A DNA stretch of 64,000 nt, taken from positions 1 to 64,000 of the forward strand of contig NZ_JAPZVR010000006.1 in the NCBI RefSeq assembly GCF_027622855.1. The letters run 5' to 3'. The position numbers and the translations under genes are program-made. The notes below the pieces were generated by a model. That model ran no database searches. It was not told where the DNA came from and saw only the letters and a program-made list of their open reading frames with translations. This DNA comes from Glycomyces algeriensis (GTDB taxonomy: Bacteria; Actinomycetota; Actinomycetes; Mycobacteriales; Micromonosporaceae). Below, in pieces: positions 41,246 to 44,837 of the stretch. Positions within the stretch are counted from its first letter, which is position 1; each line of letters starts with the position of its first letter.

Positions 41246-43033
41246 CTAACCGGCAACCGCTTCGGTACCCGCTTCCGCTTCCGGTACGAAGTCGATGCCG
41301 GCCTCGGCGCGCTGCTCGGGCGTGATGGTGGTGGGTGCCGAGGTCAGCGGGTCCATGCCGCCGCCCGACTTGGGGAACGCGATGACGTCGCGGATCGAGT
41401 CGGACTTGGCGAGGATGCCGCAGACGCGGTCCCAGCCGAGCGCTATGCCGCCGTGCGGCGGGGCGCCGTACTTGAGGCCTTCGAGGAGGAAGCCGAACTG
41501 CTCCTTGGCCTCCTCGTGGGAGAGGCCGAGCACGTCGAAGACGCGGCTCTGGACCTTGGCGTCGTGGATACGGATCGAGCCGCCGCCGAGCTCGTTGCCG
41601 TTGCAGACGATGTCGTAGGCGTAGGTGAGCGCGTTCGCCGGGTCGGACTCGAACTTGTCGATCCACTCCGGGTTGGGCGAGGTGAACGGGTGGTGGATCG
41701 CGGTCCAGCCGCCGTTGTCGGTGGGTTCGAACATGGGGGCGTCGACGACCCAGCAGAACGCCCAGGCGTCGGCGTCGATGAGGCCCACGCGCTTGCCGAC
41801 CTCGAGGCGGGCCGCGCCGAGCAGCTCCTGGGCCTCGCGGCGGTCGGTGGCGGCGGCGAAGAAGACGGCGTCGCCGGCCTTGGCGCCGACGGCGTCGGCG
41901 AGCCCGGCCAGGTGCTCCTCGGAGAGGTTCTTGGCGACGGGGCCCTTCGGCTCGCCGGTCTCGGCGTTGAAGGTGATGTAGGCGAGGCCCTTGGCGCCGC
42001 GCGCCTTGGCCCAGTCCTGCCAGCCGTCGAGCTCCTTGCGGGTCTGCGAGGCGCCGCCGGGCATGACGACCGCGCCGACGTAGCCGCCGGCGTCGATGGC
42101 GCCCGCGAAGACGCGGAACTCGGTGCCGCGCAGGTAGTCGGTGAGTTCGACGAGCTCCTGGCCGAAACGCAGGTCGGGCTTGTCGGAGCCGTAACGGTCC
42201 ATGGCGTCGTGCCAGGTCATGCGCGGAATCGGCAGCTGGATCTGGTGGTCGGCGAGCTCGGACCAGAGGGCCTGGACGACGCGCTCGCCCAGGTCGATGA
42301 TGTCGTCCTGGTCGACGAAGGAGGCCTCGATGTCGAGCTGGGTGAACTCGGGCTGGCGGTCGGCGCGGAAGTCCTCGTCGCGGTAGCAGCGGGCGATCTG
42401 GAAGTACTTCTCGAAGCCGCCGACCATGAGGAGCTGCTTGAACAGCTGCGGGGACTGCGGGAGGGCGTACCAGGTGCCGGGCTGGAGGCGCACGGGGACG
42501 AGGAAGTCGCGGGCGCCCTCGGGGGTGGAGCGGGTCAGCGTCGGGGTCTCGATCTCGACGTAGCCGTCCTCGACCAGAAGGTTGCGGGCGATGTGGTTCG
42601 CCTTGGAGCGCAGGCGGATCGCGTTGTTGGGGCCGGTGCGGCGCAGGTCGAGGTAGCGGTGGCGCAGCCGGATGTCCTCGGAGACGTCCACGTGGTCGTC
42701 GATCTGGAACGGCAGCGGCGCGGCCTCGGAGAGGACCGTGAGGTCGTTCGCGGTGATCTCGATCTGGCCGGTGGGCAGGTCGGGGTTCTCGTTGCCTTCG
42801 GGGCGGCGCGCGACGGTGCCGGTGACGGAGACGCAGTACTCGTTGCGCAGCTTCTGGGCGGCCTCGGCGGCCTCCGAGTCGCGGAAGACGACCTGGACGA
42901 CGCCCGAGGCGTCCCGCAGGTCCACGAACTCCACCCCGCCGTGATCGCGGCGACGCGCCACCCATCCGGCGAGGGTGACTTGCTGGTCGACGTCAGCGGC
43001 ACTCAGCGTGCCGGCGAGGTGTGTCCGATACAC
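41246..43033 (-). CDS. aspS: Aspartate--tRNA ligase
   Basis: Class II synthetase charging tRNA-Asp (possibly also tRNA-Asn, as in many actinobacteria that use the transamidation route). 595 residues: N-terminal OB fold ([23 protein letters not shown]), RHRYLDLRR, motif 2 [20 protein letters not shown], the bacterial GAD insertion, and motif 3 GIALGWDRV followed by the family C-terminal [15 protein letters not shown]. The GTG start has GAGGAG about 11 nt upstream. Confidence 0.95.
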
Positions 43034-43334: not shown

Positions 43335-43463
43335 TTCCTATTCAGCGCGCGAGCGCACTACTGCGCTTCCCCATCAGCGCGCGAGCGCGCTACTGCGTTA
43401 ACTACTTCAGCGCGCGAGCGCGCTACTGCGTTAACTACTTCAGCGCGCAAGCGCGCTGAAGCC
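43335..43463. repeat. Four imperfect copies of a 31-33-bp GC-palindrome repeat
   Basis: Each copy has a core AGCGCGC-GA-GCGCGCT (last copy AA in the centre; first has one change) and the spacers CTACTGCGTTAACTACTTC between later copies. The last unit, CTTCAGCGCGC-AA-GCGCGCTGAAG, is a perfect hairpin and contains the stop codon of the HEPN-domain gene. The cluster resembles a REP-type or terminator-derived array. It has no CRISPR spacers. Confidence 0.85.
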
Positions 43464-43958
43464 GAGGAGCCTCACCACCACGTCGAGGAACCGGCGGGCG
43501 TCGGCGACGATCGCGTCGGCCTCTTCCGGGGTGACGATGTCGGGGATGCCGGCCTGCGCGAGGACCCGTTTGCGGGCGGTGCGGGCGAAATGCGAGGCCC
43601 ACTCCTCCAGCTCCGGCGCAACGCCCCGCAGCAGCTCCCAGGTGCTCGAGGGGCGGCCGGGCCGCCGCCTGCCCGTGGCGTCGCCCGCCCGCACTGCGAG
43701 CACGGCCACGGCCACCCGGAGGGCGGCCAGGTGCGCCTCGGCGTAGCGCTCGCCGGGGCGGGTGCGCTCCGCCGCGTCGTCGAGGTCGACGCGGGCGGTG
43801 GCGAGGAGCTGGAGCGGGGAGCGGTTGGGGAGCTGGTCTGCCGGGATTCGCAGGCGTGAGTTCTGCACGGTGCCCGCTTGCACCAGTCGGGGGCCGCTCG
43901 CGCCGCGGGTTCCCACGGGCGAGGCGGATCGAGTTACGGCGGGTCGAGAAGCTGCCAT
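43440..43958 (-). CDS. SAV_6107-family HEPN-domain protein
   Basis: 172 residues from ATG 43958 with a strong AGGAGG at 8 nt. The C-terminal two-thirds is an all-helical HEPN-type domain: LLATARVDLDDAAERTRPGERYAEAHLAALR, LLRGVAPELEEWASHF, and TPEEADAIVADARRFLDVV. It contains RYAEAH, an R-x4-H as in many HEPN RNases, though its equivalence to their active site is uncertain. A perfect LexA box 24 bp upstream suggests SOS induction. Family members often lie near mutasome genes in Streptomyces (memory, not checked). The last codons are made from the GC-palindrome repeat. Confidence 0.75.
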   Translation of the reverse strand: MAASRPAVTRSASPVGTRGASGPRLVQAGTVQNSRLRIPADQLPNRSPLQLLATARVDLDDAAERTRPGERYAEAHLAALRVAVAVLAVRAGDATGRRRPGRPSSTWELLRGVAPELEEWASHFARTARKRVLAQAGIPDIVTPEEADAIVADARRFLDVVVRLLGFSALAR

Positions 43959-43981
43959 GACGTGGGCCTCCTTAACCTTGT

Positions 43982-43997
43982 TCGAACTTGCGTTCGA
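43982..43997 (-). promoter_or_regulatory. LexA (SOS) box upstream of HEPN gene
   Basis: TCGAAC-TTGC-GTTCGA: a perfect inverted repeat identical to the mycobacterial/actinobacterial SOS consensus TCGAAC-N4-GTTCGA. It lies 24-39 bp upstream of the HEPN start and just downstream of a CATATT that could be the -10, so LexA would block initiation. Confidence 0.8.
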
Positions 43998-44111
43998 GAA
44001 ATATGGAACCACACGGGTCCGACATTTCCAACCCCCATCGTCGCGCGAAATCAGCGAATGGCTACGGAGTGTCGCTCATCCGACAGCACTGTCATTGCAC
44101 GGCAACAGAAA

Positions 44112-44215: not shown

Positions 44216-44596
44216 CTACTCGGCGATCTCGTTGACCATGCGGAGGTGGCCGCGGGCCTCTTCGGCGCGGCCCATCCGCTGGAGGGTGCGGCCGAGGAGC
44301 AGGCGGGCGTAGAAGTCCGCCGGGTTGGCCTCGACCATCTTCTCAGTCAGCTCGAGCGCCCTGTTCAGCTGCGCCGACTTGAAGTAGGCGCGCGCGGCGA
44401 CGAGCATGACGTCCGGGTGGTCCGGGTGGTCGCGCAGCAGCGGCGCGAGGAACTGCAGGGCCCCGAGCGGGTCCTTGAGGGCGAGCATCTCCTCGGCGTC
44501 GCGCAGCCGCCGAGTCTCCTCGGGGATCTGGCGCGGCCTGGCGTCGGAGTCGATGAAGGCGGCGATCTGGTCGTCGGTGATGTTCTCGTAGCGCAT
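44216..44596 (-). CDS. Tetratricopeptide-repeat protein
   Basis: 126 residues from ATG 44596. After an acidic N-terminal segment it has about three TPR-like helix pairs: AEEMLALKDPLGALQFLAPLL, PDVMLVAARAYFKSAQLNRALEL, and DFYARLLLGRTLQRMGRAEEARGHL. It is a protein-interaction scaffold with no visible enzymatic domain. Cytoplasmic. Small TPR genes near aspS are common in actinobacteria. Confidence 0.8.
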   Translation of the reverse strand: MRYENITDDQIAAFIDSDARPRQIPEETRRLRDAEEMLALKDPLGALQFLAPLLRDHPDHPDVMLVAARAYFKSAQLNRALELTEKMVEANPADFYARLLLGRTLQRMGRAEEARGHLRMVNEIAE

Positions 44597-44837
44597 TTCG
44601 TGGACAACGCAAGTCCGGCTCGGATCATTCCCGGCCCGAGCAAGCCCCCGCATTCCCGGCGCCGCCCTTCAAAACGGGCATCGGAGGACCCCCGATATCA
44701 AGGGTGACACTGGGGTACGACACTCCGGTGACTCGGCGACGACTTCGCAGGCACCGAGTCCGGTCATGGCGGCTGCGCCACCCCGTTCGTTGCGGAGCGC
44801 CGCCGGCCCGATCTGCGCGTGGTGCGCCCGGCGCGCC

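Follow-up and report, generated by a model that had tools for sequence, protein, structure and literature searches.

A gene for a HEPN protein in Glycomyces algeriensis lies directly behind a perfect palindromic LexA box. This locus raises the question of whether the gene belongs to the SOS response and, if so, what a HEPN protein would do there. A preliminary description had suggested that the product could cut nucleic acids or be linked to the mutasome. The window is the whole stretch of DNA that was analysed, 64,000 nt in length; the nearest named relatives of its genome are G. niveus, G. luteolus and G. lechevalierae.

The HEPN gene and its promoter

The following features were identified at the 5' end of the gene and in its upstream region.

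43440..43958, minus strand: HEPN_SAV_6107 (PF18726) gene, 172 amino acids, ATG start, stop codon included (profile match; AlphaFold2 model)
43967..43972, minus strand: Shine-Dalgarno sequence AGGAGG, 8 nt before the ATG (sequence; kept with small variation in Glycomyces relatives)
43982..43997, minus strand: LexA (SOS) box, perfect palindrome TCGAAC-N4-GTTCGA (sequence; conserved in relatives)
44000..44005, minus strand: candidate -10 hexamer CATATT, directly 5' of the LexA box (sequence only)
44003..44025, minus strand: promoter element ATGTCGGACCCGTGTGGTTCCAT, a degenerate RecA-NDp/PafBC-like match (differs from the assumed consensus at 4 positions)

The gene is read on the minus strand from an ATG at 43958-43956 to a stop codon at 43442-43440. 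A longer reading frame from a GTG at 44012, which would include the box, was disfavoured; the ATG is preferred because of the Shine-Dalgarno sequence and an N-terminus shared within Glycomyces. The protein scored 102 bits against the PF18726 profile (curated cut-off 27.2), which bears out its earlier assignment to the SAV_6107 type, and no match to it was found in NCBIfam. Upstream, on the same strand, a gene for a TPR protein (44216-44653) has its 3' end facing the box, so that the box would most simply act for the HEPN gene. After the HEPN gene comes a short repeat array and then, at a distance of about 400 nt, the next gene, aspS (41246-43033). The array (43342-43472) contains TCAGCGCGCGAGCGCGCTACTGCGTTAACTACT and variants of it, in all four direct repeats of 33 nt with inverted arms, and extends into the end of the HEPN coding sequence; it could be a terminator or the remnant of a mobile repeat. 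No MNT nucleotidyltransferase gene was detected beside the HEPN gene when the two flanking genes, aspS and that of the TPR protein, were scanned.

The box itself, TCGAACTTGCGTTCGA (TCGAAC-TTGC-GTTCGA), occupies positions 43982-43997. The preliminary description had placed a perfect LexA box 24 bp before the start and beside a candidate -10 hexamer; the box is indeed exact and just upstream, but its distance to the ATG is 23 nt. The hexamer CATATT was found just 5' of the box and is unchanged in 12 of 20 named Glycomyces. In a genome-wide motif search, TCGAACN4GTTCGA had a single exact copy in the 5.59-Mb Glycomyces genome and 61 sites with at most one mismatch. A lone exact box would by itself be modest evidence of LexA control, because one such site can precede some gene by chance. 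It is the conservation of the box across relatives that makes the observation convincing.

Conservation of the LexA box

The exact box was observed in 20/20 named Glycomyces, with the spacer GCAA in 18. For the wider survey, 91 class-level loci were used, about one per genus with Streptomyces represented twice. They were drawn from the best-scoring hits among the matches listed, and genera with weak hits are therefore under-represented. Three PF18726 matches (L243-L245), marginal in score and belonging to other classes, were left out of the 91 as doubtful members; no box and no translesion synthesis (TLS) gene was found near them. A LexA box with at most one mismatch was detected upstream of the HEPN gene in 87/91 loci and was exact in 72, and the exact boxes had 31 distinct spacers. 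Box density in the survey loci was 97 in 145.6 kb upstream versus 10 in 926.6 kb elsewhere, and a scrambled half-site control gave 0 upstream versus 1 elsewhere. The four box-less loci are L266 and L240, which have two-mismatch boxes uncounted in the 87, and the two Streptomyces loci (L233 and L234), where no box within two mismatches was found upstream of the HEPN gene.

Other samples gave a similar picture. The first 30 loci, with that of the window included, had a box (at most one mismatch) upstream in 29 cases, and the named loci in 71 of 80. The nine named loci without a box comprise three that end less than 600 nt upstream (L076, L081, L086) and six from Streptomyces (L082, L093, L097, L105, L113, L116), none of which has a box within one mismatch. 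Streptomyces keeps the HEPN gene, mostly with methyltransferase and DUF3040 genes, but without the LexA box. In nine Corynebacterium-type loci outside the 91, the best box had one mismatch in three and two mismatches in six. Paired one-mismatch LexA boxes, spaced by about 40 nt, were seen ahead of the HEPN gene in seven of nine loci sampled from family f103 (L195, L208, L215, L221, L227, L229, L230); no TLS gene was present within the stretch examined in these seven.

A conserved SOS box at the promoter, the mark of an actinobacterial LexA regulon gene, was thus found for the HEPN gene. The damage control predicted in the preliminary description is backed by the 87 loci, and the survey of boxes before SAV_6107 homologues that it had proposed showed the box in most relatives. 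SOS control of the HEPN gene is very likely.

Other SOS promoters and a possible second damage switch

In the Glycomyces genome, the genes for ImuA' (recognised by eye), ImuB and DnaE2 stand together on another contig (C1; L142, 4723-10623), unlinked from the HEPN gene. The boxes upstream of them are TCAAACACCTGTTTGA (two mismatches) and TGATACACATGTTCGA (three mismatches); the former is an unusual symmetric box. The lexA box, TCGCACGAATGTTTGA, has two mismatches, and the best LexA box of recA, a gene that lies in the window, is poor (three mismatches). The HEPN gene has the best consensus box among the Glycomyces SOS promoters examined, though it is unlinked from the polymerases.

RecA-NDp (PafBC-type) motifs were scored against an assumed consensus. 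An exact motif, TTGTCGGTGGGTGCGACTACCGT, stands just before recA (56539-56517, minus strand), which suggests that control of recA in Glycomyces may be PafBC-dominated. In the survey loci the motif (at most one mismatch to this consensus) was found in 25/91 upstream regions versus 4 times elsewhere; with 30 shuffled versions of it, there was no upstream hit and there were 0 to 2 hits elsewhere. Where a motif with at most two mismatches and a box lay within 60 nt, the box started 31-33 nt after the start of the motif in 21/25 pairs. In the element before the Glycomyces HEPN gene, 4 positions depart from the consensus in the window and between 3 and 5 do so in 20 named Glycomyces; some relatives have better matches than the window ahead of the box. 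Because the Glycomyces element is degenerate, PafBC control of its HEPN gene would be a possibility only. The Streptomyces loci contain weak NDp-like matches (two mismatches in L233, one in L234).

The RecA-NDp name and the link to PafBC are given in the available parts of PMC8223512 and PMC6789036, and the former also states that some genes bear both LexA and NDp elements. According to the part of PMC9380542 at hand, the PafBC motif of M. smegmatis is not kept in S. venezuelae, which is at odds with the matches in L233 and L234. The same paper reports LexA ChIP-seq in S. venezuelae; HEPN is unmentioned in its main text as available.

Linkage to translesion polymerase genes

Downstream genes were identified with profiles grown from single seed proteins. 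A gene for DnaE2, ImuB or DinB was found downstream, on the same strand and within 6.5 kb, in 62/91 loci, in line with the mutasome link suggested earlier. The next profiled gene within 800 nt was that of DnaE2 in 38 loci, a methyltransferase in 13, ImuA' in 8, DUF3040 in 4 and DinB in 2. Where DnaE2 is next, 15 of the 38 loci have a candidate start codon for it that shares a 4-nt overlap with the end of the HEPN gene. The gene orders observed include box-HEPN-ImuA'-ImuB-DnaE2 (Dactylosporangium, Planosporangium, Micromonospora), box-DUF6504-HEPN-DnaE2 (Modestobacter, Geodermatophilus, Kineosporia, Yinghuangia) and box-HEPN-methyltransferase-DinB. DUF6504 lies between the box and HEPN in 45 loci, and the box precedes DUF6504 in every one of them. 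Representative DUF6504, DnaE2, DinB, ImuB (as Y-family), methyltransferase and DUF3040 proteins were confirmed by Pfam. ImuA' had no Pfam match and was named from its appearance and its position before ImuB. No TLS gene was detected in the downstream stretch examined in 29/91 loci, including that of the window; four of these end early at contig ends, and the box is kept in 26 of the 29.

In the 13 loci where a class I methyltransferase is the next gene, DinB and DUF3040 often follow. The methyltransferase gene was seen between HEPN and DinB in L191, L194, L202, L205, L224, L255, L270-L273 and L275, and it may be another overlooked damage-response gene.

An identity of DUF6504 with a stand-alone C-terminal domain of ImuB, the ImuB-C of the modules in PMC12926913, was suggested by shared Trp and Arg patterns and by the available part of that paper. 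A profile comparison did not bear it out (hhalign probability 1.3%), and the identity is put forward only tentatively. An apparent overlap in L259 was considered as a natural HEPN-DUF6504 fusion and rejected, the two genes not being in one frame.

Distribution and the Corynebacterium orthologue

The HEPN gene was found in 331/397 genomes of the order (68/74 genera) and in 238/393 genomes of the class (90/123 genera). A search of the phylum matched 44/396 genomes, and the 14 of these 44 that lie outside the class are all weak matches. Among the matches listed, nearly all genomes have one copy. The 20 HEPN-less genomes among those listed (135 more are unlisted) all belong to one genus (g11), taken to be Mycobacterium, and all 20 have DnaE2 over the cut-off. 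Obligate co-occurrence of HEPN and DnaE2 is ruled out by such genomes. Since DnaE2 is present in them without HEPN, the HEPN protein is not an obligatory subunit and is not indispensable for DnaE2.

In C. glutamicum, cg2381 is described in the available part of PMC5055667 as a LexA-regulon gene for a "conserved hypothetical protein", induced by ciprofloxacin with an M-value of 3.86. In genus g293, taken to be Corynebacterium, the order HEPN-DUF3040-mraZ-mraW was observed in 4/4 Corynebacterium-type loci (read by eye; in L292 the four genes are all confirmed by Pfam). Because of this order and because mraZ is cg2378, cg2381 is by synteny very probably the Corynebacterium orthologue of the HEPN gene. 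It resembles the Glycomyces gene as a probable orthologue under LexA; however, the part of PMC5055667 at hand gives it no link to HEPN or to the mutasome. The earlier statement that no characterised member is known was nearly right, except that LexA regulation and ciprofloxacin induction of this probable orthologue have been reported there.

Protein fold and the nuclease question

The AlphaFold2 model, built with 108 sequences, is a HEPN bundle (mean pLDDT 86.5, pTM 0.72) of four helices at residues 48-64, 68-91, 106-113/115-135 and 144-165. Foldseek gave no structural match under an E-value of 0.001. In VIA-align 2, HEPN structures ranked first, with 2hsb at a Z-score of 15.0 over 117 residues and 20% identity; only 2hsb lies above the value of about 13 up to which VIA-align advises caution with helical bundles. 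This structure is AF0298, a UPF0332-type HEPN protein and the closest solved fold. As in the Glycomyces protein, the motif Arg of AF0298 is kept and the motif His is lost. AF0298 differs in being archaeal and in having an alternative His, which aligns (weakly) with R81 of the Glycomyces protein. Two sites bear on the nuclease question.

43731..43748, minus strand: codons of R71-x4-H76, at the start of helix 2 and not at the HEPN active-site position (conservation and model)
43566..43568, minus strand: R131 codon; the residue aligns with the Arg at the motif position in AF0298, and the following His is absent (weak alignment, E 0.45 to 1.9)

R71 is Arg in 106/108 sequences, and H76 is His in 86/108 and Tyr in 18/108; both residues occur together in 84/108. 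R131, whose placement comes from the weak alignment, is Arg in 106/108, and a His follows 5-7 residues on in only 1 of those 106. No Rx4-6H motif was found before the last helix. This agrees with the available part of PMC3710099, where the group, named "HEPN-M (SAV_6107)", is listed as lacking the motif. The PF18726 family of that paper has in common with the proteins studied here the sequence family, the fold, the occurrence in actinobacteria and the absence of the Rx4-6H motif, and the table row on the group, as available, gives no function, operon partner or regulator. The R-x4-H of the preliminary description exists, as R71 and H76, but it does not stand at the catalytic position of HEPN proteins, and the proposed cutting of nucleic acids is not borne out by the sites in helix 2 and around R131. 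W107, P115, W120, F157 and R81 are invariant or almost so in the family, and they suggest that a surface is conserved for structure or for binding. At R145, D149 and R152, Glycomyces does not follow the majority of the family, a possible trace of the separation of its gene from the operon.

Alternative roles

The HEPN fold and the good joint conservation of R71 and H76 would fit an SOS-induced RNase or toxin that cuts RNA after damage and slows translation or growth. In the available part of PMC3710099, an upstream His together with the motif Arg is proposed as an alternative site for the AF0298 group. A screen described there found toxicity even among HEPN proteins that lack the motif, so the protein may still be toxic. 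However, the position of that alternative His falls on R81 in the weak alignment, a His almost never follows R131, and H76 is replaced by Tyr in a sizeable group. The same source gives the motif as not present in SAV_6107, and the two flanking genes tested, those of aspS and the TPR protein, are no antitoxin. We consider RNase activity unlikely. Another alternative is a regulator of the damage response that binds RNA or DNA without catalysis and is no partner of the polymerases. Motif-less HEPN domains are proposed to be non-catalytic RNA binders in the part of PMC3710099 at hand, and the conserved family Arg residues R71, R81 and R131 are consistent with such binding. The 4-nt overlaps with DnaE2 suggest instead that production of the protein is coupled with that of the polymerase, and a regulator acting apart from it is unlikely.

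The gene order in Corynebacterium raises the further possibility of an SOS checkpoint of cell division or growth, in which HEPN would restrain the divisome until repair is complete, like DivS of Corynebacterium. Beside the adjacency to mraZ and mraW, it is in favour of such a checkpoint that ciprofloxacin induces cg2381 and divS and lowers mraZ (PMC5055667, available part). The adjacency, however, can have been inherited from an older HEPN-methyltransferase-DinB-DUF3040 block, and the prevailing linkage in the survey loci is to TLS polymerases. A checkpoint role is quite unlikely.

Proposed role in damage-induced mutagenesis

The HEPN gene thus proves to belong, with good conservation, to the SOS/translesion gene set of Actinomycetes; its SOS control and its linkage have good support in the sequences. 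A role of its protein in the TLS response is likely, and the most likely function, which we hold to be probable, is that of an SOS-induced, non-catalytic accessory or adaptor of error-prone polymerases. Direct membership of the polymerase complex is plausible and is put forward tentatively. According to this proposal, LexA would occupy the box next to the promoter and block transcription of the HEPN gene. After damage, RecA-triggered cleavage of LexA would release the gene. The product, a small HEPN protein of four helices that lacks the RNase histidine, would then serve the induced polymerases, namely DnaE2 with ImuA'/ImuB or DUF6504, or DinB, presumably by contact with them, and would thereby influence mutagenesis. 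As the Glycomyces HEPN gene keeps a LexA box of its own, it is still predicted to be induced alongside ImuA'-ImuB-DnaE2. Shared regulation is no proof of a shared complex.

Possibly, the error-prone polymerase complexes of Actinomycetes have in PF18726 a small subunit that has gone unrecognised: a dead HEPN bundle that stands in for ImuA' as adaptor or works beside it, with its gene under LexA control and, in some lineages, under PafBC control as well. This reading would apply especially to DUF6504-HEPN-DnaE2(-DinB) operons without an ImuA' gene. Such a subunit would have been missed because the presumed Mycobacterium lacks HEPN and Streptomyces has lost the LexA box. The HEPN gene sits in operons of the kinds already known as the ImuA-ImuB-DnaE2 mutasome and as the actinobacterial DnaE2-[ImuB-C](-PolY-RecA) modules (PMC12926913, available part); those bearing it are HEPN-ImuA'-ImuB-DnaE2 and DUF6504-HEPN-DnaE2(-DinB). 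The modules are, however, described there without a HEPN subunit, and the word HEPN occurs 0 times in the main text as available. In the literature covered, which is that outside subscription and where the families may go by other names, no paper joining ImuB and HEPN and none on DUF6504 was found. Nor did that literature show a paper tying the PF18726 family to the mutasome; LexA control of the probable orthologue cg2381 had already been published.

In actinobacteria, which include industrial producers and pathogens, the driver of induced mutation is SOS mutagenesis by DnaE2 and ImuB. An SOS-controlled HEPN gene inside such operons would add a testable component that is missing from the published mutasome models, as far as these are available, and would give a concrete role to a HEPN family so far annotated by name alone. 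It also points to the reuse of a toxin fold, stripped of its active site, in the tolerance of DNA damage.
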